Positions 26,616 through 49,044 of a stretch of DNA of 64,000 nt are shown here, one piece after another. The notes beneath the pieces were generated by a model. It was not told the DNA's origin and made no database searches. It was given only the letters and a program-made list of their open reading frames with translations. The stretch is taken from positions 62,001 to 126,000 of the forward strand of contig BPUI01000005.1 of the NCBI GenBank assembly GCA_019973575.1, read 5' to 3'. Positions within the stretch are counted from its first letter, which is position 1. Each line of letters starts with the position of its first letter. A program made the position numbers and the translations under genes. The stretch comes from Gemmatimonadetes bacterium T265. GTDB lineage: Bacteria > Gemmatimonadota > Gemmatimonadetes > Gemmatimonadales > Gemmatimonadaceae.

Positions 26616-28802
26616 TTAGGCCGCGTCGGCGCCCGCCGCGTCCGCGTCCGCCGCGGGTTGTTCGACCGTTGTTGCGCGATCCGCGCTGTCGTCTGTACCC
26701 TCTCTTACGGCTGCCGCGCGGTTGGGCGCGCCCGGGCGGTCGTACAGGCCCGCGAACGCCGCGTCGCGCGCGTAGTGCAGCTTCCGCACGCGCAGCGGCG
26801 CGCGGCTCCGCAGGAACACGAGCGCCTCGTCGGGCGGCAGCCGCCGCACCTCGTCCGGCGTGAGCAGCCGTCGTCCCTTCTCCGACAGCGACTGCGAGCT
26901 CCCCTCCTGCCGCGACCCCTGCCGCCCGTGCGACGTCGACGCCGACGCGCTCTCGCCCTCGACGAGGATTGTCGCTTCGCCCGTCAGCTCGGACACCAGC
27001 TTCGCCGTGTCCAAGTCGTTCGTACCGAACGTCTGCAGCACGTCCGCGTTCGCCAGGAAGGTGCCCCACGACTGCCGGTACTGCGCCTTGAGCTGCGCGA
27101 GGTCCTGCAGGAAGAGCCAGAACGTCACGCCGTACCCCGCCGCGATCGTGAACGCGTCCTCCACCGGCGCGAGCCGCTTCAGGTTCGCGAACTCGTCGAG
27201 CGCGAACAGCACGCGCGGCCGCTCCCCGTGTGCCTGTCCGACGAGCGCCTCACCCGCGCCCTGGTGCACCATCGTCCGCAGGCACACGCCGATCATCAGC
27301 CGCATCCACGCGCGGTACGTCGAAAGCCTTTCGGTCGGCAGCACGAGGTAGAGCGACAGCTGCCCGCGCCGCAGATAGTCGAGTGGCACCGTCGTGTGCG
27401 CGAGTACGGCGGCCATGCGCTCGGAGTCAAGGAAGTGCGTGCAGCGCTGCGCGGTCGAGATCACACCCGAGCGCTCCTTGTCCGCCTTCTGCTGCAGGCG
27501 GGCGGCCCCGCGCGCGATCAGCGTCCCCACGTGCCCGAGGTGCGCCGTCGAGCCCTCGGTCCCGCACGCGCGCATCTTCGCGAGCAGCTTTGTGAACTCG
27601 TCGGGGGGGAGCGTCACCAGCTCGCGCACGCGGAGTAGCGAACGCCGCCGCCCCCGCGGCTCGGTCGCCGCGACGTACAGGATCAGCGCGCTCAGGAGCG
27701 CGCGCCCCTCCGGCTCGAAGTGAGAGTCCCCGCCCGTGCCGCTCGCCGTCTCCTCCGGCAGTGTCAGCATGTCCGCGAGGATGGCGGCGTCGTCCGGCGC
27801 GTCGACCGCGCTCGCGTCCACGATGTCGAGCGGGTTGATCGCGCCCCGTACGCCGTGCGCGTGCGCCTCGGCGTCCGTGATCCCGAACGGGTCGAGCGCC
27901 CACACCTGCTGCTGCGCGTCACGCCGCCGCCGGTGCGTCAGCGTGTAGTTCTCCCCCTTCGGGTCGGTCACGACGACCGAGCCCGGGTAAACGAGCAGGT
28001 TGGGCACGATGACCGACACGCCCTTGCCGCTCCGCGTCGGCGCGATCGTGACGAGGTGGCCGTCACCCTGATAATGCAGCACCGGAGTTCCGGTCACGCG
28101 CCGTGCGCGCCGACGGGGCACGTGGAGCGTTAGATGTCCGCGGGCGTCCGCCGCGCGCCCGAGTAGCAGGCCTAACGATGCGCCCGTGGCGTTCCCGAGC
28201 CGCGGGCCGGGTACGAATGTCGCCCGCAGATCGTCTCCCGTCCCCCACGTTGCGGACCCGTGCGACGCGCTCGGCGCGCGCCGGCGGCGGCGCGGGTAGG
28301 CGACGAGCGCAAGGACGAGCAGGACGAGCAACGTGCTGCCGAACCCCCACCAGTACGCGCGCATGGCGGCGTCCGCGGCCTCGCGCGCGACGTCGCCGGC
28401 GGGCACGCGCCCGAGCCGCACCATCCACGTCACGCCCTGCAGCGGCCCGTACACGGGCGCCCGTGCCGCCACGGACGCCGTCACCGCCGCCACGAGGCAT
28501 CCGAGCGCCACGCTGGGGGCCGATGCGGGTCCCCGGCGCGCGCGGGTCAGCACCGCGGCGCCGACGCCCGCGAGGGTCACGGCGCCGACTCGTAAGAGCA
28601 CCGTGGCGCTTCCCGTGGCGGCGAACAGCGGCTGGCCGAGCGTCGGGGCGTAGCCGTACGCTGCGGCGGCGCGCTGCGCACCAGCCCACATCGCGTAGCC
28701 GACGCATGCGGCGAGCACCAGGAGCACCGGCGCCGGCGAAGTGCCGGCCGGCTTCGGCGGGGCGCCCCCGCCCGCCACCTGGGCGGTGTCGGCGCCGTTC
28801 AC
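26616..28802 (-). CDS. traG: Conjugative coupling protein TraG/VirD4 family (T4CP)
   Basis: About 728 residues. Several N-terminal membrane segments (VLLVLAACVGYAMWAG, VGAVTLAGVGAAVLT, WWGFGSTLLVLLVLALVAY), then the ATPase: Walker A APTRSGKGVSVIVPNLL near residue 250, KGENYTLT, FEPEGRALLSALILYVA, and the Walker B region PRVLFALDEFANLKRLAPVEDAF. C-terminal segment GEATILVEGESASAS, with acidic tail. It couples the relaxosome to the mating channel and powers DNA transfer. GTG 28802 forms a GTGA overlap with the upstream gene, so translation is probably coupled. Confidence 0.93.
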   Translation of the reverse strand: MNGADTAQVAGGGAPPKPAGTSPAPVLLVLAACVGYAMWAGAQRAAAAYGYAPTLGQPLFAATGSATVLLRVGAVTLAGVGAAVLTRARRGPASAPSVALGCLVAAVTASVAARAPVYGPLQGVTWMVRLGRVPAGDVAREAADAAMRAYWWGFGSTLLVLLVLALVAYPRRRRRAPSASHGSATWGTGDDLRATFVPGPRLGNATGASLGLLLGRAADARGHLTLHVPRRRARRVTGTPVLHYQGDGHLVTIAPTRSGKGVSVIVPNLLVYPGSVVVTDPKGENYTLTHRRRRDAQQQVWALDPFGITDAEAHAHGVRGAINPLDIVDASAVDAPDDAAILADMLTLPEETASGTGGDSHFEPEGRALLSALILYVAATEPRGRRRSLLRVRELVTLPPDEFTKLLAKMRACGTEGSTAHLGHVGTLIARGAARLQQKADKERSGVISTAQRCTHFLDSERMAAVLAHTTVPLDYLRRGQLSLYLVLPTERLSTYRAWMRLMIGVCLRTMVHQGAGEALVGQAHGERPRVLFALDEFANLKRLAPVEDAFTIAAGYGVTFWLFLQDLAQLKAQYRQSWGTFLANADVLQTFGTNDLDTAKLVSELTGEATILVEGESASASTSHGRQGSRQEGSSQSLSEKGRRLLTPDEVRRLPPDEALVFLRSRAPLRVRKLHYARDAAFAGLYDRPGAPNRAAAVREGTDDSADRATTVEQPAADADAAGADAA

Positions 28803-29245
28803 ACCCGTTCGCTCCTGCGGTGCGAATAGGTGACGACGCCGTAGTCGCGCGCGTGCTCGGCCTGCCGCACCATCGCCGACCCGCCGGCGAGCATGGGCAG
28901 TCCGACCACCGCCGCGAGTACCGCGGCGGTGCGCGCCCCAGCCGGCCACCCGTCCGCGACGTCCGACGCGGCGACCGCGCAGCACAGGACGCCCGCCGCG
29001 CCGCCGACGGCCGCCCCGATTCCCGCTCGGAGACGCCACGCCGGCGACGACGACCACGGCACTCGAAGCGCGAGTTCCGCCCCGCCGACGAGCAGGAGTA
29101 CGGCGAGCGCCGCGCCGAGTAGCGCGTCGGGGACGGCGGTCTCCGCCCGGAGTGTCGGCAGCGCGAGGATGAGCGCGGCCGCGCCGGCGAATAGGGCGGC
29201 CGGAAATCGCAGCGAGGCCGACCGCGCCTTCACGGCTCTGGTCAC
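28799..29245 (-). CDS. Conjugation-operon membrane protein, unidentified
   Basis: 148 residues from GTG 29245, which overlaps the trbI stop by GTGA; its own stop overlaps the traG GTG. Four hydrophobic segments: FPAALFAGAAALILALP, LLGAALAVLLLVGGAELAL, AGIGAAVGGAAGVLCCAVA, AAVLAAVVGLPMLAGG, then a basic tail (YSHRRSERV). No family recognised. Location between the VirB10 and VirD4 homologues suggests a channel-associated inner-membrane protein. The two overlaps indicate it is translated in proportion to its neighbours. Confidence 0.65.
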   Translation of the reverse strand: MTRAVKARSASLRFPAALFAGAAALILALPTLRAETAVPDALLGAALAVLLLVGGAELALRVPWSSSPAWRLRAGIGAAVGGAAGVLCCAVAASDVADGWPAGARTAAVLAAVVGLPMLAGGSAMVRQAEHARDYGVVTYSHRRSERV

Positions 29246-30729
29246 GGTGTCCCGGCCCCGCGCGCCACCGCGGCGGCCCGCCGGGCGTACCCGTTCCCCG
29301 CGCCGCCGTACGGACCCGGGAACACGAGGTCCGTGTTCAGGAACACGTTGAACTGCGTCCCCTGGCGGATGCGGATCGTCTGCTGGTTGTTCAGGTCGCG
29401 GCGCAGCATTTCGACCGCGACCGCGTTCAGCTGCTGTCCGAGCGCGCCCGCAGCGACCTGGCCCGCGCTCGGCGCCGCGAGCAGGTTGCCGTTCTGCGGT
29501 TGCGAGAGCTGCACGCCGGCCGACAGCAGCGAGAGCGCGCCGGCGGTGGCGAACGTGCGCCGCATGTGCCGGTCGACCTGGTCGGCCACGCCGCGCGCGC
29601 CGGCTTGGTCGGTCGCGGGGAGGCCCGGCAGCTGGACGCTGCGCCCGTCGGGGAGCAGGATGCGCGTCCACGCGACGAGCAGGCGCGACTGCCCGGCGCC
29701 GAGCTGGTCGTCGTAGCGGCACAGCAGCCGGGCGCCGCGCGGGATCAGCAGCACGTGCTGGGTGCGCGTGTCGAACACGTCGCGCGTGGTCTGCGCGAGG
29801 CACTCGCCCGGCAGGTCGCTGTTGATCTCGGTCATCAGCACGGCCGGGATCACGGTCCCCGCCTGCACCGCGAACGCGCCCGGCGCCGGATCGACGGTCA
29901 GCGTCTGCACCGTCCGCCGCGGCTGCGCGGCGTCGGCGAGGAAGGCCGTGTACCGGCCGGCCGCGGCGACGTTAGGCGCACCCAGGTCGCGCGGGTCGCC
30001 CTGCCCCGCCCCGTCAACGCCGGCCACCACCGGGTCGGGGCGCGCCGCCACGCGCGTTGGGGGACCGAACCCGGGCGCGAGCGCCGGGACGCTCGAGGCC
30101 GCGTTGTTAAGCGCCGTGTCGCTCTCGCGCGAGGCCGCCGCCTCGTCGTACGCCGCGGACGCGGTGAGCGCTTTCCGGTACGCCGCGCGGCGCAGTTCGG
30201 CCAGCGTCGGCGGGCGCGGAGGTTGTGGAGTGGCCGCCACCGCGTACACCGCGCCGCCAGTCGGCACGACGGTGTTCATGCCGGTGTCGCCGACCGCGGC
30301 GTACGCGGAGGCAGGAGAGGTGGAGGCGGCAGCGCCGGACGTTGCCGCGGTCTGCCCGGCCGCAGTCGGGTTGCCGAAGCCGGGCGCGAGGCCGATCCCC
30401 GCCCCGCTCGCGGCGGCCGACGGGCCGATCGGCGGGGTGCCGGCGGCGGCCGCGGCCGCGCGCTCGTTCCGCAGCGGCTGGTCCAGGTAGGTGCCCGGCG
30501 TCGCCGGCGGCGTCGGGGCCGCGTTCGCGCCGGGCTGCGGCGTTGGCTGGATCAGCACCACGACCGCAATCGCGAGCATGCCGGCCGCCGCCGCGGCGAT
30601 CGTGAGCGCGTTGCGGTTCATGCGCGGCGCGGTCGGCGGCGTCAGCGGCGCCGTAGGGTTCGGCGGCGCGGCGTTCGCGCGTGTCGAACTCCCGGGCAGG
30701 AGTCGGCGGAATCCGTCACGGAAGCTCAC
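29242..30729 (-). CDS. trbI: TrbI/VirB10 family outer-membrane core channel protein
   Basis: 495 residues. Short cytosolic N-terminus, one membrane segment (LTIAAAAAGMLAIAVVVLI) near residue 40, a Pro/Ala-rich periplasmic linker, and the conserved VirB10 C-terminal domain: FAVQAGTVIPAVLMTEINSDLPGECLAQTTRDVFDT, LLIPRGARLLCRYDDQLGAGQSRLLVAWTRILLPDGR, and TIRIRQGTQFNVFLNTDLVF. VirB10 spans both membranes and responds to ATP-driven signals from the coupling protein. GTG 30729 overlaps the trbG stop. The trb order otherwise places trbH between G and I; no trbH is seen here. Confidence 0.93.
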   Translation of the reverse strand: MSFRDGFRRLLPGSSTRANAAPPNPTAPLTPPTAPRMNRNALTIAAAAAGMLAIAVVVLIQPTPQPGANAAPTPPATPGTYLDQPLRNERAAAAAAGTPPIGPSAAASGAGIGLAPGFGNPTAAGQTAATSGAAASTSPASAYAAVGDTGMNTVVPTGGAVYAVAATPQPPRPPTLAELRRAAYRKALTASAAYDEAAASRESDTALNNAASSVPALAPGFGPPTRVAARPDPVVAGVDGAGQGDPRDLGAPNVAAAGRYTAFLADAAQPRRTVQTLTVDPAPGAFAVQAGTVIPAVLMTEINSDLPGECLAQTTRDVFDTRTQHVLLIPRGARLLCRYDDQLGAGQSRLLVAWTRILLPDGRSVQLPGLPATDQAGARGVADQVDRHMRRTFATAGALSLLSAGVQLSQPQNGNLLAAPSAGQVAAGALGQQLNAVAVEMLRRDLNNQQTIRIRQGTQFNVFLNTDLVFPGPYGGAGNGYARRAAAVARGAGTP

Positions 30730-31832
30730 GGCGACCTCCGCCCCGACACGGCCGTTGCCGGCGCGGGCGCGCGCCCGTACGCCCGGTTCTCGAGCTCGAA
30801 CCGCTGCTCCTGCTTGCCCTGCCCCACGACGAGCACCGCGCGCCGGAAGGTCCGGTCGGTGACGTAGAAGCCGTCGCGCACGACGTAGTTGAGTAGCGTC
30901 GTCCCGCCCCCGTCGTCGAGTTCGAAGAGCGCGGGCGCCGCGTATGCGTCGGCCTCGGGCGGGAGCTGGACGAACGTGTGCGCGCCGTCGTCGAACACCC
31001 GCGCGGGCGACCACGGGAAGCGGCGGTCGCGCCGGAGGTCGTACGAGAAGTTGAGCCGGAGCGCGTCCACCGGGATGCCGGCGAGCGCCTGGGCGTCGGC
31101 GCCTAACACTCCGGCACCCGCGGCCGCCGCGGCCGTCCGGAGCGTGCCTCCGTCGGTGCGCGTGCTGTCGTCGGGGTAGGCGAATCGCGCGCGGCTGACG
31201 TACCGGACGCGCGCGCCCGCTGCCCCGCACGGGCCCGAGTCGAGCGCGACGTGGTAGACGCGCCGGTCGGTGGGCAGGACGAGGTTCGTCGCGAGGTCGC
31301 AGTCGGTCGGCTTGACCCACACGATCGACGCGCCCCCGCCCGGCCCCGTCGGCGCCACCCCCGCGCGCCAGCGTACGGCGTCGCCGATGATCGGCGCCGG
31401 CACGAGCAGCCGCTCTCCCGGCTCGAGGTCGACCACGCACGCGCGCAACACCGCGCATGTGAGGACGGGCTCGCGCGCGCCGTCCGCACCGAGCGCGGCG
31501 AAGCGGAACGTGATGACCTGGCCGCCCGCTTCCGGTGCCGCCGCGACCTCGGGAGGCGGCGCGGCGGGGGTACGCATCGCGACTGCGTGACGACGCCGGT
31601 GGACGCGCGGCACGCCCGATCCCGCCGGCGGTGCGGCCGCGGCCGCGTGCGCCGCGGCAGTGTGGCGCGCCGCGGTATCTGCAGCGGCCGCGGTGGTCAC
31701 CGTGGAGCGCACACCGGACCCGCGCGCGCTGGTGGCGGGCACCGCAGGCACCGCGGTCTGCGCGCCGGCCGCGGCGAGCGGCGCGAGGCCGGCCACGATC
31801 ACCACGCGATTGGTGAGAAGTGAACACTTCAC
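30726..31832 (-). CDS. trbG: TrbG/VirB9 family outer-membrane core protein
   Basis: 368 residues from GTG 31832. Signal-like N-terminus (KCSLLTNRVVIVAGLAPLAAAGAQ), a long Ala/Thr-rich linker, then conserved VirB9 features: VITFRFAALG, ACVVDLEPGERLL, GDAVRW, WVKPTDCDLATNLVLPTDRRVYHVAL, RFPWSPARVFDDGAHTFVQLP and NYVVRDGFYVTDRTFRRAVLVVG. VirB9 forms the outer ring with VirB10. The 14-bp palindrome at 31817-31830 lies in codons 1-6 if GTG 31832 is used; a later GTG (31805) would put it 12 bp upstream of the start, like at trbD and trbJ. Confidence 0.92.
   Translation of the reverse strand: MKCSLLTNRVVIVAGLAPLAAAGAQTAVPAVPATSARGSGVRSTVTTAAAADTAARHTAAAHAAAAAPPAGSGVPRVHRRRHAVAMRTPAAPPPEVAAAPEAGGQVITFRFAALGADGAREPVLTCAVLRACVVDLEPGERLLVPAPIIGDAVRWRAGVAPTGPGGGASIVWVKPTDCDLATNLVLPTDRRVYHVALDSGPCGAAGARVRYVSRARFAYPDDSTRTDGGTLRTAAAAAGAGVLGADAQALAGIPVDALRLNFSYDLRRDRRFPWSPARVFDDGAHTFVQLPPEADAYAAPALFELDDGGGTTLLNYVVRDGFYVTDRTFRRAVLVVGQGKQEQRFELENRAYGRAPAPATAVSGRRSP
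31817..31830. promoter_or_regulatory. AAGTG-N2-CACTT palindrome at trbG start
   Basis: GAAGTGAACACTTC, a perfect 14-bp inverted repeat about an AA/TT centre. It overlaps the trbG GTG start region. One of six copies in the window (see 35201, 38414, 46842, 46886 and 46980). Confidence 0.75.
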
Positions 31833-32752
31833 GGGGTGCCTCCTGCCGTTGGTGCAATAGGCGCCGATGGCGACGCTGGGGCGGACCACGCCGGCGCTCC
31901 CGTCGCGCCCTGGTCTGCCGCCGGTCGAGGCGCGGTGACCTGGGTCCAGTTCACCGACGTGATGAAGAGGCCGAGCGGGTTCGCCTCCATGCGGTCGCTC
32001 GTCGTCGGCGCGACCTGGCGCGTGGTCAGGTAGCCCTCCCACGCCGCCGTCGTGGACGGCCCGCCGCCGCGGGGGTAGTCGGTTTCGAGCCACGCGACCT
32101 TCCACGTCGCGGGCGCGTTCGGACCGGGCCGGCTCGCGCCCGGTGCGGCGGGCAGCGGGAGCACGCTCGTTACCTCGACGGTGCGCGAGAGCGTGGCGGC
32201 GAGCACCCGCGGATCGCGCGCGGGGTCGGTGAAGTACGCGTCGAGCCACCCGGCGGCGCCCTGGTCGACGAAGGCGTACGCGCGACGCACCATGTCCTGC
32301 TGCGCCACCGCGTCCGCCACCACGGTGCGGATGTCGCGCACCCAGCCCGCGACCGCGCTCGTCACGACGCGCTGGTCGGCGGGCGCGATCCGCTCGGCGG
32401 GGGCGAACGCCCGCGCGCGGCCGAGCCGGTCGACCTCGACAACGTACGGTGTGATGCGCGACTGCGTGGCGAGCGTGACGAAACCGACGCTCAGCACGTT
32501 GGCGACGCCGAGCGCACCGAAGGCCGCGAGCTGCCAGTTGCGGCGGGACCGCGCGAGGTCACCGAACGCGCCCGCGAACTCGGCGCGCCCGCGCGCCACT
32601 GCCTCGATCCACGGGTTCGTCCCCGGAGCGTGGTCGAGCGGAATGGAGCGGAGCACGGCCGCGTGCGGACGCTCGCCGCGGCCGTTCGCACCGGCGGGCG
32701 TCGCAGGCGCAACCGAGTCCGCCGCCGTGGATGTGGTCGAGAAGAGGCGCAT
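31829..32752 (-). CDS. trbF: TrbF/VirB8 family inner-membrane assembly factor
   Basis: 307 residues, N-terminal cytosolic part with GTNPWIEAVARGRAEFAGAFGDLARSRRNW, one membrane segment (QLAAFGALGVANVLSVGFVTLA), and a periplasmic VirB8-like domain: ITPYVVEVDRLGRARAFAPAERIAPADQRVVTSAVAGWVRDIRTVV, AYAFVDQGAAGWLDAYF, WKVAWLETDYPRGG, WEGYLTTRQVAP. VirB8 nucleates the channel in the inner membrane. The ATG 32752 is 1 bp after the trbL stop. The C-terminus is Pro/Ala-rich and overlaps the trbG GTG. Confidence 0.92.
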   Translation of the reverse strand: MRLFSTTSTAADSVAPATPAGANGRGERPHAAVLRSIPLDHAPGTNPWIEAVARGRAEFAGAFGDLARSRRNWQLAAFGALGVANVLSVGFVTLATQSRITPYVVEVDRLGRARAFAPAERIAPADQRVVTSAVAGWVRDIRTVVADAVAQQDMVRRAYAFVDQGAAGWLDAYFTDPARDPRVLAATLSRTVEVTSVLPLPAAPGASRPGPNAPATWKVAWLETDYPRGGGPSTTAAWEGYLTTRQVAPTTSDRMEANPLGLFITSVNWTQVTAPRPAADQGATGAPAWSAPASPSAPIAPTAGGTP

Positions 32753-32753
32753 G

Positions 32754-33803
32754 TCAGAGCCCGCGCAGCGCGTGGCCGATGCCGAGGTGTCCGCCGCCCG
32801 CGACCCGCGCGGCCGCGCTCGATGGGATGCGGAGCGAGAGCAGCGCGAACACGACGGAGAGCGCCAACATGTTCGCCGCGACGCGGATGTCGAACGTGAC
32901 GTTGCTGTGGAAGACCGCGCGCGCCTGCTGGACGATGGCGACGCCGAGCGCGACGACGAGGTAGAACGCGAAGAGCTTCACCCCGCAGTAGACGAGGTAG
33001 TTGAGGTAGTTCTCCGCGTACGCCGCCGTCGCGCGGAAGCCGGCGAAGCCGAGGAAGAGCACCCCGCCGCCGAGCGCGATGTACGCCTCGACCCACACGA
33101 GCAGGAGCTGGGCGGCGACCGAGGTGAAGCACACGACCACGATCACCTGCGCGATCAACTTGAAGAGCACCGCGCCTAACGCCTCGAACGACCACGGGAT
33201 GTTCATGGTGCCGAGGTCGTCGAACGCGAACTGCATCCCGATGTCGAGGATGCCCGTCGGGCCCGTCGGGAGCGGGAGCACGCTTCCGCGCTGCGCTGCG
33301 ACGGCGAAGCTGTTCACGAGCGGCGGTAGCCAGTACGACGCGCCGGTGATCAACATGAGCAGAAACGAGATGAGGATGAACTTGAGCAGGAACCGCCGCG
33401 CGATCTCGGTCAGGTCCTCGCTGCGCCCGAGCCACAGGAACGAGCTGATGGTGAACTCGATCCCGGCGAGCGTGACGAACAGACGCCGCCCGATCGCCGA
33501 CATCGGCGCGATCCACGCGCGGGTCATCGCCGCGTACTGGTTCCGCACCTGGTCGAGCACGCCGGGCTGCGCGTGCGCGTCGGGTGGGGCGACCACCGCC
33601 GCCGCGACCGCGAGCACCAGCGCCGTTCCGGCGAGCACGCGCACCGTCGTCCGCCACGACTCACCGCCCCGGTCGGCGGGCGCGGGCTCCCACGTGTCCG
33701 TCGGCACTCGCGGCCGTGCCCGGGTCGGGAGTGCGGCGAGGGTGCGGCGGGCGGCCCGGCGGGCGCGCGGCAGCGCGCGATCGAGGACGGCGGACGACGG
33801 CAC
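32754..33803 (-). CDS. trbL: TrbL/VirB6 family polytopic channel protein
   Basis: 349 residues from GTG 33803. One N-terminal hydrophobic stretch (TVRVLAGTALVLAVAAAVV), then six or so membrane spans including FVTLAGIEFTISSFLWLG, FLLKFILISFLLMLITGASYWLP, LLLVWVEAYIALGGGVLFLGFAGF, FAFYLVVALGVAIV and MLALSVVFALLSLRIP. TrbL/VirB6 is the polytopic inner-membrane part of the mating channel. The order trbJ-(K)-L-F-G is preserved here. The start at GTG gives a 10-bp gap to the preceding gene. Confidence 0.9.
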   Translation of the reverse strand: MPSSAVLDRALPRARRAARRTLAALPTRARPRVPTDTWEPAPADRGGESWRTTVRVLAGTALVLAVAAAVVAPPDAHAQPGVLDQVRNQYAAMTRAWIAPMSAIGRRLFVTLAGIEFTISSFLWLGRSEDLTEIARRFLLKFILISFLLMLITGASYWLPPLVNSFAVAAQRGSVLPLPTGPTGILDIGMQFAFDDLGTMNIPWSFEALGAVLFKLIAQVIVVVCFTSVAAQLLLVWVEAYIALGGGVLFLGFAGFRATAAYAENYLNYLVYCGVKLFAFYLVVALGVAIVQQARAVFHSNVTFDIRVAANMLALSVVFALLSLRIPSSAAARVAGGGHLGIGHALRGL

Positions 33804-33813
33804 GGCGGCTCCG

Positions 33814-34317
33814 CTACGGTTTGAAGAGTTGCGAGTCGAACGCCGCCTTCCGCTGGCCGGGCGTCATCCCGCGCTGCTGCGCCTCGCGCGCCCGCACGCG
33901 GGCGTTGAGGTCGCGCACCTGCTGCTCCTGCGCGTGGCGGAAGTGCGCGGACCAGACGGCCCGGCAGTTCGGCCGCGCGCCGTCGGCCTCGAGCCCCGGC
34001 GGCGCCTGCGACTCGCCGCAGTACGCGGTTGCCTGGCGCCACCGCCCGGCAGAATCGGCACCCGCCTGCTCGTACCAGTAGCCCGCGTTGTAGCGCGTGC
34101 TCGGCGCCGTCGAGCGGAGCGCTGCGAGCGGGTCGTCGCCGTTCGCGAGCGCGTCAGGCGAGGGCGCGCACGCCGCGGCCGCGGCGAGCAGGGTCGCGAG
34201 GGCGCCGGGCCGCAGCCGACGGCGCGCACCGGCAACCGTCCGAAGAGCGGTCGCGCGCGGGCGCAATGTCGCCACGGGCAACGGCGAGACGCGGTGGGCA
34301 GGCCGGGGGTTCTCCAT
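33814..34317 (-). CDS. EexN/TrbK-like entry-exclusion lipoprotein
   Basis: About 168 residues from ATG 34317 (34344 is an alternative). A hydrophobic stretch ends in the lipobox ATLLAAAAAC. The mature region YNAGYWYEQAGADSAGRWRQATAYCGESQ...PNCRAVWSAHF follows the pattern of EexN-family entry-exclusion lipoproteins: Tyr-rich start, Arg-rich helix, one Cys and then NC. It sits in the trbK position, between trbJ and trbL, where RP4 and Ti systems encode their exclusion lipoprotein. It would stop redundant mating between plasmid-bearing cells. It is longer than TrbK (about 70 residues). Confidence 0.65.
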   Translation of the reverse strand: MENPRPAHRVSPLPVATLRPRATALRTVAGARRRLRPGALATLLAAAAACAPSPDALANGDDPLAALRSTAPSTRYNAGYWYEQAGADSAGRWRQATAYCGESQAPPGLEADGARPNCRAVWSAHFRHAQEQQVRDLNARVRAREAQQRGMTPGQRKAAFDSQLFKP

Positions 34318-34393
34318 GAGCAACGAGGGATACGCGGTGGGCATCGGCGTGGGCGTTGGGGGTGGCCGCGGCCCAGGCCGAGTGGCCGAGCCG

Positions 34394-35191
34394 CTAGAAG
34401 GCGTACGCCGCGGGATCCATGCGCGGGCGCACGGGCGGGTTCGTCGTGAGCGCCCGCGCCGGCCCGGTGATCAGCGCCTGCACGGCCGCCGTCCCCTGCA
34501 GCTCGCGGTTCGCCTCGTCGGCCGCGCGGACGGCCTCGGCGCTCGCCTGCGCCAGAAGTTGCTGCCGGAGCAGCGCCGCCTCCTCGGCCTGCGTCACCAA
34601 CGCCGTCGCGCTGATCTCGGCCGCCTGCTGCGCACTCGTTGCAGCCGCGAGCTGGCGCTTCATCGTCCCGAGCTGGGCCATGCTCTGCCCGATCTGGAGC
34701 CCGGTCGCCTGCCCCGCCACGAGCGCGCCCTTGAACGTCGCGAGCGCCGCCTCGTGCCTCGCTCGGACGTCGGCCGCGACGGTGGCCGGGTTGTACGCGT
34801 AGCCCGGGAACGTCGCCGCCAAGCGACCGGGGAGCGCGCCCGCGCTGTAGCCGAGCGCCTGGCCGCTCGCCATCAGGCCGTCCACCGTGGCCACGGCGGT
34901 GTTGATGTTCCGCCACGCGTATGACGAGGTGAGCTTCCGCGTGTTGGCGACGAACGCGGCCGCATTCGCCCGCGCGACCGTGAGCTGGTTTTGCAGCTGG
35001 TTGATTTGCGCAATCAGCTTCGCCACTGCGGTGGGGTCGAACACGATCGACGGCAGGCCGAAGAGTGCGTGGGCGCGGGCGGGCAGGAGCCCCGCCGCGA
35101 GCCCGGTCAGGGCGAGCAGCGTCAGCCCGCGCCGCGCGACCGTGCTGCGCCGGGCCGCCCGCCGGCTCCCCACGCCGGAATAGTCGTCCAT
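34394..35191 (-). CDS. trbJ: TrbJ/VirB5 family minor pilus protein
   Basis: 265 residues from ATG 35191. Signal peptide with a basic front (RRAARRSTVARRGLTLLALTGLAAGLLPARAHA) cleaved before LFGLPSIVFDPTAVAKLIAQINQL, which is the TrbJ hallmark. The rest is long amphipathic helix (TVARANAAAFVANTRKLTSS, LATFKGALVAGQATGLQIGQSMAQLGTMKRQL). An upstream ATG at 35335 would overlap trbE and add an acidic extension. The palindrome at 35201-35214 is 10 bp upstream of the ATG, where it would cover the ribosome binding site. Confidence 0.88.
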   Translation of the reverse strand: MDDYSGVGSRRAARRSTVARRGLTLLALTGLAAGLLPARAHALFGLPSIVFDPTAVAKLIAQINQLQNQLTVARANAAAFVANTRKLTSSYAWRNINTAVATVDGLMASGQALGYSAGALPGRLAATFPGYAYNPATVAADVRARHEAALATFKGALVAGQATGLQIGQSMAQLGTMKRQLAAATSAQQAAEISATALVTQAEEAALLRQQLLAQASAEAVRAADEANRELQGTAAVQALITGPARALTTNPPVRPRMDPAAYAF

Positions 35192-35200
35192 GGCCGCCGG

Positions 35201-35214
35201 GAAGTGTTCACTTT
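35201..35214. promoter_or_regulatory. AAGTG-N2-CACTT palindrome at trbJ start
   Basis: GAAGTGTTCACTTT, one mismatch in the outermost position from the GAAGTG-TT-CACTTC consensus. Lies 10-23 bp upstream of the trbJ ATG. A further CCCCACTTCCC follows, extending partial symmetry. Confidence 0.72.
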
Positions 35215-35303
35215 CCCCACTTCCCGCCCGCTCCAACCCGAGATCGAGCTGCGCGGCGTCCCGCATCGGCAGCGGGGCAGCTGCATCGGCGTCGTCGGGC
35301 AGG

Positions 35304-38036
35304 TCAAACGGCAGCGAGGGTGTCGTCGTCCACATGGGCCGGCTCCTGAGTCGGATGCTGGGGAGGGGTGGAGCGCCGCAGCGCCCCGGGTATAGAGTCG
35401 ATCGAGAGGCGCGCCGCATTGGACGCCCTCGTGTCGGGGGCCGCGATCGCAGCGCCGGGCGGGGGCGCGAAGCCGAGCCGCGCGAGCCAGGTGCGCGGCC
35501 ACTCCGGGCCGTGGACGCGTTCGAGGTCGTCGACCTCACGGCGCACGGCGTCGGGCCCGAGCCCGGCGGGGAGCCCAACGAAGGCGCGCGCGACCGGGCC
35601 GAGTTGCAGCTTCACCACGCGCGAGCCGAGCGGACTGCGGACGTAGTAGTCACGCTTGGGGACTGCGGCCGCGACGAGCGCGATCTCCGGGTCCGTGAGG
35701 CCCAGTTCGCGGTAGCAGCGCGCGTTCGACTCGGTACCCGCCTCGGCGTTGGGCAGCAGGATGCGCGTCGGGCAGCTCTCGACGATCACCGCCTTGGCCG
35801 GGAGCTGGTCGAGCTGCGCCGGCGTGTGCAGCACGAGTACGACCGCCCCGTTCCGCTTCCGCTGCGTGAGCAGCCACGTGCGGAGCAGCTCGGGGAAGCC
35901 GGCCTTGAGCAGCGCGTGTACCTCCTCGACCACTGTGAGCGTCGGGCGTCCGTCGAGCCGGCGCTCGACGCGATGCGCGAGGTAGAGGAACGCGGGCGCG
36001 ATGACCCGGTCGCCTAACGCCAGCAGGTGTTTGAGCTCGAAGACCTGGAACTGCGCGTCGCCGACGGGGTCGGCCGTCGCGTCGAAGAGCTGGCCGTAGG
36101 TGCCGCCCGCGAGGTACGGCGCGAACGCCTCGCGCAGCGCTGTGTCCTGCACCTGCGTCACGAACTCCGTCAGCGTGCGGTGCGCCCGCGGCTGCTCGCC
36201 CAAGAGCGCGAGCGCCCGCGCGAGGCGCCCGCGCTGCTCCGGCGTGACGCGCAGGCCCTGCAGCTCGAGCAGCACCTCGAGCCAGCCGCCCGCCCACGCA
36301 CGCTCGTCGGCGCGGTCCACGTCGGCCAGGGGCTGGAACGCCACGGCGTCGGGCCGCCCGGCGCACAGGTCGTAGTGTTGCGCCCCGCACGCGCGCGCGA
36401 GCAGCCAGTGCGAGTAGTCGTAGTCGAAGACGACCGTCTGCGCGCCCAGCTCGGCGGCGTACCGCTGCCACTGCGCCTGCACGAGGCCGAGCAGGGTGCT
36501 CTTCCCCGCCCCGGTCGCGCCCACGACGACGGCATGTCCCACGTCGCCGACGTGCAGGTTGAGCCGGAACGGCGTCGACCCGTCCGTGGCGACGTGCATC
36601 AGCGGCGGCGACCCCGCCGGGAAGTACGGGCTCGGGTTGTGGGGCAGCCCCGGCCACACGCTCGTGAGCGGCCACAGGTCGGCCAGGTTCTTCGAGTGCA
36701 GTAGCGGCCGGCGCAGGTTCTGGTACCCGTGCCCGGGGAGCGAGCCGAAGAAGGCCTCCGGCGCGTTCACCGTCTCGGTCCGCGCCGTGAAACCGTGGTC
36801 GTGGAGCGCTCGCACCACCTCGGCCGCGTGCGCGGCCGACACCGCGGGGTCCTCGTCGGCCACGAGCACGACCTGGGTCGAGTAGCCGAACCGCACCGTG
36901 CCCGACGCGTTCGCCGCCTGCGCCGTGTTCAGATCGCGCAGCATCGCCGTCGCGTCCTGGTTGCCGAACAGCTCGTCCTCGCGCTGCCGCTCGTAGCCCG
37001 AGTGCTCGCGGTTGCTCGCCATCTCGCGGACGAATGTCCCGAAGTCTTTCCGCTTGGAGAACCACGCCTGCCGGTGCCGCCGGATCAGCCGGTCGGCCGT
37101 GCGCTGCCCGACGGGGATGAAGCGCGACGACCAGCGGTACGGCACCGGGAGCGCGTGCAGGAAGTCGAGTCGCCCGCCGCCGTGGTCCTCTGGGTAGCCC
37201 TCGACCGCGACGACATGCACGTGCCGGCCACCCACGCGCGGGACGAAGCCGGGCACGAACGCCTCGCTCGCGAGCACGCTGTTGAGGTAGGCGCCTAACG
37301 GCAGCGGCGTGACGGGGTGCTCCTGCGCCGTGAGGCAGCGGTGCAGGTGCGCGACGAGCGTCGCCGCGTCGAGTCGGTCCAGGTGGAAGCGCCCGCCGAG
37401 CCGCTGTTCGAGGAGCGCCGCCTGGCGCTGGAAGTGGTCGACCTCGCGCGCGCAGGCCGCGGCCGCGCTGTCGACGGCCCGCGGCCCGCCGGCGACGAAC
37501 ACCCGCGCCGCGCGCGACTGCGTCGCCGGCGGCGGCAGGTAAGTGACGGTGAGCGTGTACTCGCTCACGAACTGTCCCGGCCGCGTGTCCCCCGCCCGCC
37601 GGTGCCCCGCCCCGCCCGCGAACGCCGCCCGCCGCTCGGCGTCGATCCACGCCGGCACCGACACGTCGGGCACGTCGGAGGCGAGCGGCGGGAACGCGCT
37701 CGCCGGGTACGGCTCCGCCGGACGGCGGACGGCGTCGACGTGCCACATCCACCCGTCCGCGAACGGCAGCAGCGCGTCGTTCACCTGGCGCGCGAGCGCA
37801 TCGAGGGCGGCGCCGCTCGCGGTCGCCGTGTCGGGGCCGGTGTATCGCCAGCCGCCGAGCAGCGCGCCGTCCTTGTTGAGCACCACGGCGCGCGGTGGGC
37901 CCGCGACGAGGAAGCCCCACTGCAGCACGTCGGCGAGTCCCTCGGGCAGCACCCGGTGCTCGCGCGCGCGACCCACCACCGCGGCGAGCCCGGCGCCGGA
38001 CACGCCGCCGCACAGGATCGAGAGCGCGTCGAGCAT
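35304..38036 (-). CDS. trbE: TrbE/VirB4 family conjugation ATPase
   Basis: 910 residues, the largest T4SS protein. N-terminal CagE/TrbE domain (LQWGFLVAGPPRAVVLNKDGALLGGWRYTGPD), middle region RWSSRFIPVGQRTADRLIRRHRQAWFSKRKDF, then the ATPase: Walker A GATGAGKSTLLGLV near residue 505, and Walker B LTVVEEVHALL near 700, followed by LLTQRKRNGAVVLVLHTPAQL. It powers pilus assembly and substrate transfer at the inner membrane. ATG 38036 is 7 bp after the trbD stop. Its C-terminal 30 residues look variable and Pro/Ala-rich. Confidence 0.94.
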   Translation of the reverse strand: MLDALSILCGGVSGAGLAAVVGRAREHRVLPEGLADVLQWGFLVAGPPRAVVLNKDGALLGGWRYTGPDTATASGAALDALARQVNDALLPFADGWMWHVDAVRRPAEPYPASAFPPLASDVPDVSVPAWIDAERRAAFAGGAGHRRAGDTRPGQFVSEYTLTVTYLPPPATQSRAARVFVAGGPRAVDSAAAACAREVDHFQRQAALLEQRLGGRFHLDRLDAATLVAHLHRCLTAQEHPVTPLPLGAYLNSVLASEAFVPGFVPRVGGRHVHVVAVEGYPEDHGGGRLDFLHALPVPYRWSSRFIPVGQRTADRLIRRHRQAWFSKRKDFGTFVREMASNREHSGYERQREDELFGNQDATAMLRDLNTAQAANASGTVRFGYSTQVVLVADEDPAVSAAHAAEVVRALHDHGFTARTETVNAPEAFFGSLPGHGYQNLRRPLLHSKNLADLWPLTSVWPGLPHNPSPYFPAGSPPLMHVATDGSTPFRLNLHVGDVGHAVVVGATGAGKSTLLGLVQAQWQRYAAELGAQTVVFDYDYSHWLLARACGAQHYDLCAGRPDAVAFQPLADVDRADERAWAGGWLEVLLELQGLRVTPEQRGRLARALALLGEQPRAHRTLTEFVTQVQDTALREAFAPYLAGGTYGQLFDATADPVGDAQFQVFELKHLLALGDRVIAPAFLYLAHRVERRLDGRPTLTVVEEVHALLKAGFPELLRTWLLTQRKRNGAVVLVLHTPAQLDQLPAKAVIVESCPTRILLPNAEAGTESNARCYRELGLTDPEIALVAAAVPKRDYYVRSPLGSRVVKLQLGPVARAFVGLPAGLGPDAVRREVDDLERVHGPEWPRTWLARLGFAPPPGAAIAAPDTRASNAARLSIDSIPGALRRSTPPQHPTQEPAHVDDDTLAAV

Positions 38037-38043
38037 TGCGGCC

Positions 38044-38406
38044 TCAGGCGAGCGGCGGGAGCGACGCGCGTGCGCGGCTCGCGCGCCGGAGCGCGGCCCG
38101 CGGGTCGGCGTGCGACGGGTAGTACGCGCGCCAGCGGAGGCTTCGCACGTAGACCGCGGTGGCCATCGGGTCGCGCGCGGTGAGCCACGCCATCGTGGGG
38201 TGAATCACGCCAACGACGAGCGCCACGATCCCGAGCGTGATCAGGTGCGGCCCGACGCTCATCAGCAGCCCGGCCGCGACGGTCACCTCAAGCGCGAGCA
38301 CCGGGCGTTCGACGCCAGCGAGCAGTACGGGACGGACGAGCGCCGGGTGGACGCGGCGTGCGGGGGCGCCGGACTCGGCCCCCGCATTCTCACCCGTTCG
38401 TACCAT
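38044..38406 (-). CDS. trbD: TrbD/VirB3 family membrane protein
   Basis: 120 residues with one or two hydrophobic segments (LLAGVERPVLALEVTVAAGLLMSVGPHLITLGIVALVVGVIHP) and the VirB3 feature RPVLLAGVERP. It then has a hydrophilic C-terminal part (YVRSLRWRAYYPSHADPRA). VirB3 works with VirB4 and VirB6 at the channel base. ATG 38406 is preferred over GTG 38433, because the latter would place the palindrome 38414-38427 within the coding sequence. Between trbC and trbE as in other trb operons. Confidence 0.87.
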   Translation of the reverse strand: MVRTGENAGAESGAPARRVHPALVRPVLLAGVERPVLALEVTVAAGLLMSVGPHLITLGIVALVVGVIHPTMAWLTARDPMATAVYVRSLRWRAYYPSHADPRAALRRASRARASLPPLA

Positions 38407-38413
38407 CGCCCCG

Positions 38414-38427
38414 GAAGTGTTCACTTC
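38414..38427. promoter_or_regulatory. AAGTG-N2-CACTT palindrome at trbD start
   Basis: GAAGTGTTCACTTC, perfect; with flanking G and C the symmetry extends to 16 bp (38413-38428). It lies 8-21 bp upstream of the trbD ATG and 24 bp after the trbC stop. Confidence 0.78.
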
Positions 38428-38450
38428 CTGCACAACGCCTCACTGCAGCG

Positions 38451-38807
38451 TCAGAGGGTCGCCCCGGCGACGATGCCGAGGTTGGCGAGGAGCGTCACTG
38501 AACCGAGGGCGATGGCGCCGCCGAACGCGATCTGGCCGAGCTTCTTGAGGCCCTCCTCATTGCGGGTGAACGCCCACAGGATCCCGCACCCGACGACTGC
38601 CAGCAGAACGAGGACGCGCGCCGTCGTGGTGGACAGGTTGCTCAGGATGTTGGTGAGCGGCGTGTCCCACGGCATCGCGGCGCCGCCGGCGGCCCACGCG
38701 GGCGCGGCGGCGAGCATCAGGCCGGCAAACAGCGCGGCGCCGCGCGCCGCGTGCGGGACGGCAGCGCGGGCGCGGAGGGCGACGCGGGGGAGCTGGCGAC
38801 GGGACAT
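38451..38807 (-). CDS. trbC: TrbC/VirB2 family pilin precursor
   Basis: 118 residues. A long signal sequence (VPHAARGAALFAGLMLAAAPAWAAGGAA) leads into a two-helix pilin: LTNILSNLSTTTARVLVLLAVVGCGILWAF and KKLGQIAFGGAIALGSVTLLANLGI, with a basic loop TRNEEGLKK between. This is the classic VirB2/TrbC layout; TraF (25948) would process and possibly cyclise it. Start ATG 38807 has GGAGGTTCCGCCC just upstream. Confidence 0.9.
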   Translation of the reverse strand: MSRRQLPRVALRARAAVPHAARGAALFAGLMLAAAPAWAAGGAAMPWDTPLTNILSNLSTTTARVLVLLAVVGCGILWAFTRNEEGLKKLGQIAFGGAIALGSVTLLANLGIVAGATL

Positions 38808-38862
38808 GGGCGGAACCTCCTGTGGCGTTAGGCGGCCGGCGTCGGGGTGGGCCGGCGGGGCG

Positions 38863-38881
38863 CCGGGGCCGGATGCCCCGG
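38863..38881 (-). terminator. Hairpin between trbB and trbC
   Basis: CCGGGGC and GCCCCGG arms (7 bp, perfect) with a CGGAT loop in the 98-bp gap between trbB and trbC. It could attenuate readthrough or protect the pilin mRNA end. No T-run follows, so function is uncertain. Confidence 0.3.
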
Positions 38882-38905
38882 TCCGGCGGGCAGGCGCGGG
38901 CGCGC

Positions 38906-39892
38906 TCAGACGGGCAGCCACGCGCCGTGCTCGGAGCAGCGGCGCAGCGCGAACCCGCCCGCCGCCGAGTAGCCGTCGACGCGCACGAGGTCCGTGACGC
39001 GCCGGTTCTGGTTGTTGCCGCTGAGCACCATGACCAGCCCGACCGCCTCCCCGACGAGGTCGAGCTGCGGGGGCACGTTGGCGCGCTGGGCGAGTCGGTC
39101 GAGGCGGTGGAGCGCGCCTAACGCGCTCTCCGCGTGCGTCGTGCAGAAGCCGCCAGGGTGGCCGGTGGCGGACGCGTCCAGGAAGTCGAGCGCAGCCTCG
39201 TCGCGCACCTCGCCGAGCACGATGCGAGTGGGCGAGGCGCGGAGCGTCGCCTTGAGCAGCGCTGCGAAGGACAGCTCCGGCGTGGTCCGGAGCGCGAGAT
39301 GATTTTCGAGCGGGCACGCCAGCTCGGGCGTGTCCTCGAGAATGACGAGGCGGTCGTCGGGGCACCACCGGCCGATCTCGGCCAGCAGCGAGCGGCCGAG
39401 CGTCGTCTTGCCGGAGCCCGTGCCGCCGCAGATGACGAGGGTGCGGCGGTCCTCCACGGCGCAGCGGAGCGCGGTGAGAAACGCCTGAGGCATGCGGCCG
39501 CGCGCGACGTACTCGTCGAGCGTCGGTGTGTACGTCGGCCGCTTGCGGATCACGAGCCCGTAGCCGGCGGCTGCGGGCGGCACGAACGCCTGCAGGCGCG
39601 CGCCGCCGTACGGGGCCGCGTCGGGGAGCTGCGCGGCGAGCACCGGGCGCGCGGGCCCGAGGGCGACGGCGTGCGCGGTGGCGACGACGTGGAGCCACGA
39701 CTCGAGGCGCTCGGGCGGCAAGAACACGTCGGTCGCCACCGGCCCCCGCGACCACGTGTCGAGGCGGAGGCGCCCGTCCTGCGGGTTCACCACCCCCTCG
39801 GTCACGTCGTCGTCGGCCAGCACGGACGTCGCGAACTCCCGGCACAACCGGGTCAGCCGCTCCGCACCAGCGTCGTCGTCACGCCACGGCAT
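38906..39892 (-). CDS. trbB: TrbB/VirB11 family secretion ATPase
   Basis: 328 residues from ATG 39892. N-terminal domain, then YGLVIRKRPTYTPTLDEYVARG, Walker A ICGGTGSGKTTLGRSL near residue 155, LVILEDTPELACPLENHLALRTTPELSFAALLKATLRASPTRIVLGEVRDEAALDFLDA (Asp box and Walker B) and the His box GHPGGFCTTHAESALGALHRLDRL. It is a hexameric ATPase that drives pilus assembly at the inner-membrane face. First gene of the trb operon; GGGGGCAGG precedes the ATG. Confidence 0.94.
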   Translation of the reverse strand: MPWRDDDAGAERLTRLCREFATSVLADDDVTEGVVNPQDGRLRLDTWSRGPVATDVFLPPERLESWLHVVATAHAVALGPARPVLAAQLPDAAPYGGARLQAFVPPAAAGYGLVIRKRPTYTPTLDEYVARGRMPQAFLTALRCAVEDRRTLVICGGTGSGKTTLGRSLLAEIGRWCPDDRLVILEDTPELACPLENHLALRTTPELSFAALLKATLRASPTRIVLGEVRDEAALDFLDASATGHPGGFCTTHAESALGALHRLDRLAQRANVPPQLDLVGEAVGLVMVLSGNNQNRRVTDLVRVDGYSAAGGFALRRCSEHGAWLPV

Positions 39893-40392: not shown

Positions 40393-40417
40393 CCCGTCCG
40401 CCCCGCGCCTGCACCGC

Positions 40418-43044: not shown

Positions 43045-43075
43045 ACTCCGCGTCCGTTCCTCGGGGTCAGCTCCA

Positions 43076-43685: not shown

Positions 43686-43721
43686 CACGGCCTTCCTCCC
43701 ACCGTCTGCACCTCACGCACG

Positions 43722-44105: not shown

Positions 44106-44149
44106 CCGCCGCGGTCCCCCCACCGTTCCGCCGCCGCCCGCTTCCCGCC

Positions 44150-44554: not shown

Positions 44555-44621
44555 GCCGCCCCGCGGGCGACGTCGGCCGACCCGCCCTGAGAATCGCCAC
44601 CGTCCCCAACGCGACGCGCCC

Positions 44622-45297: not shown

Positions 45298-45322
45298 GGC
45301 ACGGCGCCAGGCGGCCCCCCCG

Positions 45323-46181: not shown

Positions 46182-46208
46182 CTTCCGTCCGCCCGTGCGG
46201 ACGGGAAG
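46182..46208. terminator. Hairpin between convergent phyH-type gene and hxlR
   Basis: CTTCCGTCCGC and GCGGACGGGAAG form a stem with one bulged G around a CCGT loop. It lies in the 198-bp gap between two converging genes, where a bidirectional terminator is expected. Confidence 0.5.
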
Positions 46209-46288
46209 CGAGACGACCGCGAATCGGCGGCACATGACACGACGGTTCGGCTGATCCTACTGGCAGCCGTGCGCACCCCCGCCGGTCA

Positions 46289-46762
46289 TCACACCCCGCC
46301 AGCGTCATCCGGGAAGAAGCGTCGACGACGGCCCGCGCCGACGCCGTGGTCGACGGCCCACTGCGCGAGGCTCGCTACCGCCGGGGCGAGCGCCTGCCCG
46401 AGGTCGGTGAGCGAGTACGTCACGTGGCGGCCGTGCCCCGCCGGGGTGCGGTCGACGCGCCGGACGATACCGTCGGCCTCGAGAGCGCGGAGCTGCTCGG
46501 TCAGCACTTTCGCGCTGACGCCGCGCGGTAGGTGCTGTTCGAGGTCGCGACGCCGGCGTGGGCCGGCTGCCAGGCAGAGTACGACCGCGGGCTTCCAGCG
46601 CTGCGCGACGAGTTGGACGGCCGCTTCGAGCGCGAGGACGACGCGCCCGGGGTTGACGTCGGTTGTCGATCCCTGCCCCGCCCCGTCACTGGCGGTCCAG
46701 AAGCGCGGCCCCTCGCGCACCGTGAGACAGCTGCCACTCGTGACGAGTTGGTAGGCGAACAT
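46289..46762 (-). CDS. HxlR-family transcriptional regulator (1)
   Basis: 157 residues from ATG 46762 (GTG 46837 is an upstream alternative). Winged helix: AVQLVAQRWKPAVVLCLAAGPRRRRDLEQHLPRGVSAKVLTEQLRALEADGIVRRVDRTPAGHGRHVTYSLTDLGQALAPAVASLAQW, matching HxlR. It is the closest paralogue of the gene at 55568. Divergent from parA with three AAGTG palindromes between. A TATAAG box on the minus strand is overlapped by the first palindrome, so autoregulation through that site is plausible. Confidence 0.85.
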   Translation of the reverse strand: MFAYQLVTSGSCLTVREGPRFWTASDGAGQGSTTDVNPGRVVLALEAAVQLVAQRWKPAVVLCLAAGPRRRRDLEQHLPRGVSAKVLTEQLRALEADGIVRRVDRTPAGHGRHVTYSLTDLGQALAPAVASLAQWAVDHGVGAGRRRRFFPDDAGGV

Positions 46763-46841
46763 AGCCGGACAGACCTCGCAGAGACTCGATACCGGTGCAC
46801 CGCTGCGTTCCCACACATGAAGCACCTGAACTAACACTCAA

Positions 46842-46855
46842 CAAGTGAACACTTA
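46842..46855. promoter_or_regulatory. AAGTG-N2-CACTT palindrome 1, hxlR side
   Basis: CAAGTGAACACTTA, core AAGTGAACACTT perfect (46843-46854). On the minus strand it follows TATAAG directly, so it overlaps the likely hxlR -10 and start site. Confidence 0.78.
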
Positions 46856-46885
46856 TACAACATTGCCGCAAGTCGGTCCGTTCGG

Positions 46886-46899
46886 GATGTGTTCACTTC
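46886..46899. promoter_or_regulatory. AAGTG-N2-CACTT palindrome 2, parA -35
   Basis: GATGTGTTCACTTC, one mismatch. It directly abuts the TTGACG -35 box of the parA promoter (46900-46905). Centre to centre 44 bp from palindrome 1, about four helical turns. Confidence 0.72.
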
Positions 46900-46927
46900 T
46901 TGACGATGTGCGCGAACATCGTACAAT
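46900..46927 (+). promoter_or_regulatory. parA promoter
   Basis: TTGACG (46900-46905), 16-bp spacer, TACAAT (46922-46927): a good sigma70-type promoter on the plus strand, reading into parA. Expected start near 46934, leaving a leader of about 125 bp to the parA GTG that contains palindrome 3. Confidence 0.7.
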
Positions 46928-46979
46928 GCTCGACCAAGCCGGATCATCTCACATCCGGTAGAAGTGCGCAGCTAAATAG

Positions 46980-46993
46980 AAAGTGTTCACTTC
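46980..46993. promoter_or_regulatory. AAGTG-N2-CACTT palindrome 3, parA leader
   Basis: AAAGTGTTCACTTC, one mismatch at the outer base. It lies downstream of the promoter start and 66 bp before parA. A half-site GAAGTG also occurs at 46961. Confidence 0.72.
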
Positions 46994-47059
46994 CACGCGA
47001 ACGCCGCCATACACCGCGAATGGCAGCGTTCTCACACGTTCTAGCCAAACCGGCCCATC

Positions 47060-47880: not shown

Positions 47881-48489
47881 ATGGCGAAGGCACGCACACC
47901 CAACCCGTCGCGGATCGGGAAGACGCTCGGCGCCATCCTTAGCGTGCCGCGCCGGAGCGCGACCGACGAGTCCAGCGAGGCGGACGCGAGCGAACCGGAG
48001 GACCCCAACGTTCCGGGGACGCCGGACGCCCCGGCATCCGACGCCGATAGCGAGCCCGCGCAGCCTCACGCCCCCCCGGAAACGCGAGTCGACGACGCGC
48101 GAGCGGCGACCCGTACTGCGGCCGACCCTGCGCCCCCCACGACAGCCCCCGAGCCGCTGACGACGATCGCACCTGCGCCGACGCCGACGAGCGCCACGCC
48201 GCGCGGCATCACCCCAGACGCGATCGTCGACGAGGCCGACGTCGATACCGACGTCGGCGCCGGAACGCGGCGGAAGAAGCGCGAGACGTTCCTCCTCCCC
48301 GAGGAGCTCGCGGACGCGATGCGGAACGCGATCGTGCACCTATCCGGGCCGCCGCTCTACTACACGCTCGCCGAGTTCGGCGAGCACGCGATCCGCAGCT
48401 ACATCGCCGAACTCGAACGCGAGCACAACAGTGGCCGACCGTTCCCGCGGCGGCCGCGGGCGGTGCGGCAGGGTCGCCCGCTGCGGTGA
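47881..48489 (+). CDS. Putative partition partner with a C-terminal DNA-binding segment (ribbon-helix-helix-like)
   Basis: 202 residues from ATG 47881. A basic N-terminus (KARTPNPSRIGKTLGAILS), a long acidic Pro/Asp/Ala-rich linker, then RRKKRETFLLPEELADAMRNAIVHLSGPPLYYTLAEFGEHAIRSYIAELEREHNSG, where KRETFLLPEELADAMRNA looks like the beta strand and first helix of a ribbon-helix-helix fold. It follows parA immediately, so it is probably the centromere-binding partner. It is not a ParB with a CTPase domain. Assignment rests on context and a short motif. Confidence 0.6.
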   Translation: MAKARTPNPSRIGKTLGAILSVPRRSATDESSEADASEPEDPNVPGTPDAPASDADSEPAQPHAPPETRVDDARAATRTAADPAPPTTAPEPLTTIAPAPTPTSATPRGITPDAIVDEADVDTDVGAGTRRKKRETFLLPEELADAMRNAIVHLSGPPLYYTLAEFGEHAIRSYIAELEREHNSGRPFPRRPRAVRQGRPLR

Positions 48490-48690
48490 ACCCGCCCGAG
48501 CCGTTAGGCACCTGCTCGTTCCGAACCTGCGGTTCCCCTGACTCCTGACGTCGCCGGCCGCCGTCGGCGGCGGCGCGCAACGTCCGCGTACCGATTGCCG
48601 TGCCTTGCAGCGCCCCCGAGCGCAGCCGCACGCGCCGACTCATGCGAGCCCGCACACAGAATTCCGGACAGGCCCCGATGCGTGATGCGC

Positions 48691-49020: not shown

Positions 49021-49044
49021 TGTCCGCCCGCCCGCGGGTACGTG

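Follow-up and report, generated by a model that had tools for sequence, protein, structure and literature searches.

Six copies of an exclusive palindrome tentatively link partition and mating-pore genes to an HxlR-family repressor on a conjugative plasmid of Gemmatimonadetes bacterium T265

The window analyzed here is a stretch of 64,000 nucleotides from contig BPUI01000005.1 of Gemmatimonadetes bacterium T265, and it carries a partition locus, a replication region and a trb conjugation operon (Table 1). At the partition locus, hxlR-1 faces parA across a short control region (46838-47059), for which a first-pass annotation had proposed three palindromic operator copies. All three are present: palindrome 2 ends one base ahead of the -35 element of parA, and palindrome 3 lies between the -10 element and the GTG start codon, that is, in the parA leader as had been described. 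The proposed parA promoter was likewise found in the sequence, with TTGACG at 46900-46905, a spacer of 16 bases and TACAAT at 46922-46927, and it is the sole sigma-70-like site detected by a scan of 46200-47400 (shuffled mean 0.0). The hxlR promoter has weaker evidence, since the same scan listed none at the minus-strand TATAAG; the hexamer itself is present at 46857 to 46852, but its last three bases fall inside site 1, which the annotation had placed just after it. The 44-bp spacing of sites 1 and 2 holds when measured from center to center and corresponds to 4.19 turns at 10.5 bp per turn, and the other two spacings among sites 1 to 3 are 94 and 138 bp (8.95 and 13.14 turns). Two other dyads in this region may be further operators, namely CGATGT-N6-ACATCG, a perfect dyad at 46904-46921 that spans the spacer of the parA promoter, and CGGAT-N8-ATCCG at 46940-46957.

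Downstream of parA, the next gene encodes a 202-residue ParB-like protein without any Pfam match, whose C-terminal part resembles plasmid proteins, mostly from Rhodococcus and also from Streptomyces (21 records). In each of the three plasmid records opened (two from Streptomyces, one from Rhodococcus), the gene for the homologue comes directly after that for a ParA. A profile built from four sequences matched 3no7, a plasmid protein that we take to be the ribbon-helix-helix ParB of pCXC100, with an E value of 4.9e-6; as judged from these matches, parA and its neighbor are a type Ib partition pair. A search of 395 genomes with P0001 (Table 1) gave matches in its own genome only. Upstream of parA there are three scattered palindromes and no tandem array, whereas an array of 22-bp repeats (CCGCGTTTGAACCACCCTTG-like; window 48689-49021) lies downstream, ahead of the replication initiator; the repeats are probably iterons and possibly a centromere. 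The array is followed by the replication initiator and by a MobP relaxase. Around positions 31506 and 65799, the contig carries words that are almost the same and protein genes that are close to duplicates, which points to a large duplication within it.

Table 1. Genes, promoter elements and palindromic sites of the analyzed window
Feature	Position in window	Strand	Basis or remark
trb operon: traG/virD4, trbI, trbG, trbF, trbL, small orf, trbJ, trbE, trbD, trbC, trbB	26616..39892	-	Pfam
Putative operator site 6 (exact)	31818..31829	-	trbG codons 2-5
Putative operator site 5 (exact)	35202..35213	+	upstream of likely trbJ ATG at 35191
Putative operator site 4 (exact)	38415..38426	+	upstream of trbD ATG at 38406
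hxlR-1	46289..46837	-	PF01638, E 2.8e-19; start GTG 46837 or, more likely, ATG 46762
Putative operator site 1 (exact), AAGTGAACACTT	46843..46854	-	overlaps -10 and predicted start of hxlR
Candidate hxlR -10, TATAAG	46852..46857	-	without recognizable -35
Putative operator site 2 (one mismatch), ATGTGTTCACTT	46887..46898	+	abuts parA -35
parA promoter, TTGACG-16-TACAAT	46900..46927	+	sigma-70 scan
Putative operator site 3 (exact), AAGTGTTCACTT	46981..46992	+	in parA leader
parA, Walker-type partition ATPase, 268 aa	47060..47866	+	GTG start
Ribbon-helix-helix ParB-like protein, putative type Ib centromere-binding partner	47881..48489	+	P0001 without first residue

The repeated motif is AAGTGTTCACTT, which reads as GAAGTG-TT-CACTTC when taken as an extended palindrome. 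Allowing up to one mismatch, it occurs six times in the window (shuffled mean 0.01; none of 100 shuffles reached six), three times at hxlR/parA and three times in the trb operon. At this tolerance the six contigs of the genome (5,629,403 bases) contain no match beyond these six, and a reversed control pattern has none at all. When the contig of 208,826 bases was scored against GAAGTGnnCACTTC, exactly six places reached at least 10 of 12 positions, five of them at least 11 and two all 12, and every other place scored 9 or less; first-order shuffles of the contig gave on average 4.6 places at 10 or more, 0.2 at 11 or more and 0 at 12. We also counted exact copies on the contig for 320 dyads of the same 5-2-5 shape and like composition: there are five of AAGTG-nn-CACTT and two of the runner-up, and 314 of the dyads are absent. 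Taken together, the shuffles, the genome scan, the contig scoring and the comparison of dyads rule out a chance origin of the repeats.

The exact 12-mer was found at 25 sites in 20 of 395 genomes, five of these sites belonging to T265 itself, and since a reversed control gave 12 matches in the same scan, the remaining 20 are for the most part close to background. Furthermore, tblastn detected no relative of HxlR-1 inside the 20 loci that carry the 12-mer elsewhere. A phylum-wide regulon is ruled out by these near-background counts and by the HxlR-1-free loci.

The three remaining copies lie in an operon that Pfam assigns to P-type conjugation, with a trbJ match under the curated cut-off. Their centers are 14.5 nt (trbD), 16.5 nt (trbJ) and 8.5 nt (trbG) from the start codons, and the chance that three random positions in the operon would all fall within 16.5 nt of starts is about 1e-5; as the trbJ start was chosen for its signal peptide, we also considered the looser requirement of just two of the three sites within 16 nt, for which the chance is about 0.002. 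This nearness need not mean translational control, because gene junctions tolerate extra sequence. The trbG copy sits inside the gene, downstream of a clear AGGAGG, and is written in codons that are rare in 15 backbone genes: TGT (2 of 37 Cys codons, 5.4%), TCA (5 of 243 Ser codons, 2.1%) and CTT (13 of 600 Leu codons, 2.2%). The use of these three codons indicates that the site has been selected or kept as DNA, and it rules out coding constraint as the cause of the site in trbG. The first trb promoter region (39893-40417) carries no operator site, and a simple sigma-70 scan of 28000-41000 found no minus-strand promoter. A PadR gene (window 40300-40420) is divergent from trbB, and repeated AAGGTACC/CCTTGC-like words just upstream of it may be its own operator. 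The stretch from the trb operon to hxlR (window 41831-46090) holds a PF01527 transposase, a second transposase-like orf and cargo that includes a PhyH dioxygenase.

On the strength of their sequence and placement, the six sites are probably operators of one plasmid-encoded regulator common to partition and conjugation. As the exclusive palindrome is found at both loci, one protein would probably govern how the plasmid is inherited as well as how it is transferred. The first-pass annotation had envisaged autorepression of hxlR together with control of parA; shared operators for these two genes are well supported by the sequence, but the circuit was drawn too narrowly, because three of the six sites belong to the trb operon.

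We then considered which protein may recognize these sites. Site 1 covers the -10 element of the hxlR gene, which makes HxlR-1 the most likely binder, although the case that it is the regulator of all six sites is evenly poised. Its match to PF01638 scores 69.2 bits against a curated cut-off of 20.8, and it thus shares a family with YodB, HypR and HxlR of the HxlR/DUF24 group, among them relatives with solved structures. In families such as HxlR/DUF24, regulator genes often face their own operators, and HxlR proteins are known from other settings for responding to redox state and metabolites. The binding of HxlR-1 to the palindromes, as the annotation had suggested, remains plausible given the position of site 1, but the motif AAGTG-N2-CACTT was present in none of 59 regions upstream of HxlR homologues. 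These 59 were kept from 66 regions after removal of near-duplicates, and the survey left out loci L009, L010, L035, L046, L078 and L081, which are the same genes again, as well as L013, L038, L099 and L103.

The strongest dyads of this set that are not GC-rich are GTTAC-N6-GTAAC, in 13 of the 59 regions (shuffled mean 0.0), and TTACT-N3-AGTAA, in 8 (shuffled mean 0.2); the main dyads of the homologues, TTAC-N5/6-GTAA, therefore differ in geometry from the T265 operator. A related 5-2-5 dyad, AAGTA-N2-TACTT, was found in 7 of the 59 regions (shuffled mean 0.0), and its support for HxlR is weakened because TTAC-N5/6-GTAA dyads overlap with or border on most of the seven copies. In an earlier survey by best match, none of 40 loci scored above 8 of 10. 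The paralogue HxlR-2 (window 55568-56041) is 57% identical to HxlR-1 and has no operator copy upstream; the two proteins have in common one extra residue ahead of the recognition helix, and it is a matter of speculation that this residue could alter the operator.

At E<=1e-12 HxlR-1 matched 11 of 298 genomes, all those outside T265 being distant, and at 1e-15 among 179 genomes of the family it matched its own genome only, with no orthologue. The plasmid collection gave distant HxlR matches alone (340 records, all below 60% identity), and a near-DNA search recovered only short parA pieces in 8 records. In genome_contigs a first scan gave no relative and a profile scan gave 25 loci; viral_contigs gave none. 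The available portions of the open-licence literature on HxlR together with conjugation, type IV secretion or conjugative plasmids report no HxlR control of transfer.

The main competitor is the ParB-like protein encoded downstream of parA, which could bind the palindrome so that sites 1 to 3 would form the par operator and centromere, with control of conjugation through the trb sites. We regard this as a serious possibility and as the less probable of the two assignments. Its profile match to 3no7 and its position after parA in the three plasmid records fit a type Ib centromere-binding protein, and, according to the accessible part of one source, such proteins double as repressors, with centromeres upstream of the operon (PMC5016525). 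Moreover, RK2 offers the precedent of a ParB-family protein, KorB, that regulates conjugation, and apparent integrative elements of Gemmatimonadota with element-wide palindromes, described below, encode KorB-domain proteins. Site 1, in turn, lies over the hxlR start, so that part of the evidence suits HxlR as well, and the regions upstream of parA in the three relatives carry other dyads. The same partial source describes type Ib centromeres as direct and inverted repeats (PMC5016525), whereas here three copies are scattered. The locus resembles type Ib partition, as in pCXC100, in that a small ribbon-helix-helix protein is encoded right after ParA; before parA, the search for an array of short repeats turned up only the scattered palindromes, and three more sites lie in the trb operon.

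That the binder is a protein other than HxlR-1 and ParB, or that there is none, appears unlikely, and a common repressor drawn from the remaining DNA-binding proteins encoded on the contig, such as the PadR protein by trbB or one of Xre/Cro type, is a little more doubtful still. Inspection by eye revealed several helix-turn-helix regulators among the contig proteins, the PadR gene has the divergent position with respect to trbB noted above, and the operator size of 14 bp suits several regulator families. Nevertheless, no site is found in the PadR-trbB region, although self-control would be expected, and the GntR and ParB_N models match nothing on this contig. An action of the repeats as RNA, through hairpins or antisense pairing that would set translation of trbD, trbJ, trbG and parA, is very improbable: three sites are at start codons and a six-pair hairpin is possible in the trbD leader, but the case is a weak one, given that site 2 is upstream of the predicted starts of hxlR and parA alike and would fall in neither leader, and that the copies are identical and do not covary, and among the five leaders folded those of hxlR, trbG and trbD have z scores of about -1.1 or higher, while those of parA (-2.39) and trbJ (-2.02) are lower but have minimum-energy folds that omit the hairpin of the site itself.

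Returning to HxlR-1 and operator binding at the DNA level, we infer the following circuit. The regulator on sites 1 to 3 would shut the hxlR and parA promoters, and the near-integral helical phasing of these sites may allow cooperation or looping. Bound where trbD, trbJ and trbG begin, it would prevent internal initiation or serve as a roadblock, and less of the mating pore would be produced. The expected outcome is that expression of partition and conjugation genes is coupled and kept low at steady state, as with KorA/KorB/TrbA in RK2; with HxlR-1 as the binder, the protein would also repress itself. We hold the full operator model, with HxlR-1 as binder and partition coupled to conjugation, to be about as probable as not on present sequence evidence. 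Somewhat more tentatively, the conjugative plasmid may have HxlR-1 as its master repressor, which would tie together partition, mating-pore assembly and the amount of HxlR-1 itself through the six operators.

Such a design recalls the KorA/KorB network of RK2 (IncP-1), where a short operator is repeated at the partition operon and at conjugation functions of a conjugative plasmid. In the accessible parts of the sources, the consensus KorA operator is a 12-bp palindrome (PMC4889941) and KorB operators are promoter-proximal or distal (PMC11790492). The KorA operator given there, GTTTAGCTAAAC (PMC4889941), differs in sequence from AAGTGTTCACTT, no ParB_N protein is encoded on the T265 contig (three ParB_N matches in the genome, none there), and the candidate binders here are HxlR or a ribbon-helix-helix ParB. 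Because of the missing KorB/ParB_N protein and the different operator, the T265 system resembles this network and is not a member of it. Similarly, KorC/KorB of RA3 (IncU) join stability and conjugative-transfer modules by few operator copies, KorB binding three operators according to the excerpt consulted (PMC7414963), but protein families and operator sequences differ. In SetCD/AcaCD of SXT/R391 and IncA/C, one regulator ties segregation genes to conjugative transfer, according to the part of the source available (PMC4489591); there the link works through activators of the transfer genes, in contrast to the repression proposed here.

Most known cases of global coupling between partition and conjugation come from IncP/IncU and IncA/C-type elements of Proteobacteria. 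If the present reading is true, such coupling would extend to Gemmatimonadota, with an unrelated regulator replacing KorA/KorB, and element-wide repeated operators in trb operons would seem to have arisen more than once; the set of six sites would then be open to direct testing.

We also looked at other trb loci of the phylum. TrbE relatives are present in 15 of 395 Gemmatimonadota genomes, T265 included, and twelve trb loci (L129-L140) were screened for repeated palindromes, L119 being too short. Three of the twelve have a clear palindrome of their own, CATTCCG-nn-CGGAATG in L137 and L136 and GATTCCA-nn-TGGAATC in L139, with 22, 17 and 5 sites, respectively, on the full contigs; the five screened loci from the family of T265 have no repeated palindrome. 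Element-wide operators thus appear to be a recurrent design in the phylum, with differing sequences. A search of the open-licence literature joining Gemmatimonadota, KorB and integrative elements likewise showed no paper on control of transfer by HxlR.

All 22 copies of the first locus (G379:C122, with L142, L143 and L137) fall within 33872-74244, and as they adjoin a tyrosine integrase and take in a relaxase and trb genes, this region is probably an integrative conjugative element. The second locus (G224:C198, 2629-44966, with L146, L145 and L136) is an apparent integrative conjugative element with its 17 copies. Several copies occupy corresponding positions within genes of these two elements (relaxase, trbE, trbI), and both encode large ParB-like proteins with KorB and ParB HTH domains. 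At the third locus (L139/L141, G346:C594), the copies are at 2232, 3127, 7226, 9449 and 13958, and three of the five lie at junctions or starts of trb genes.
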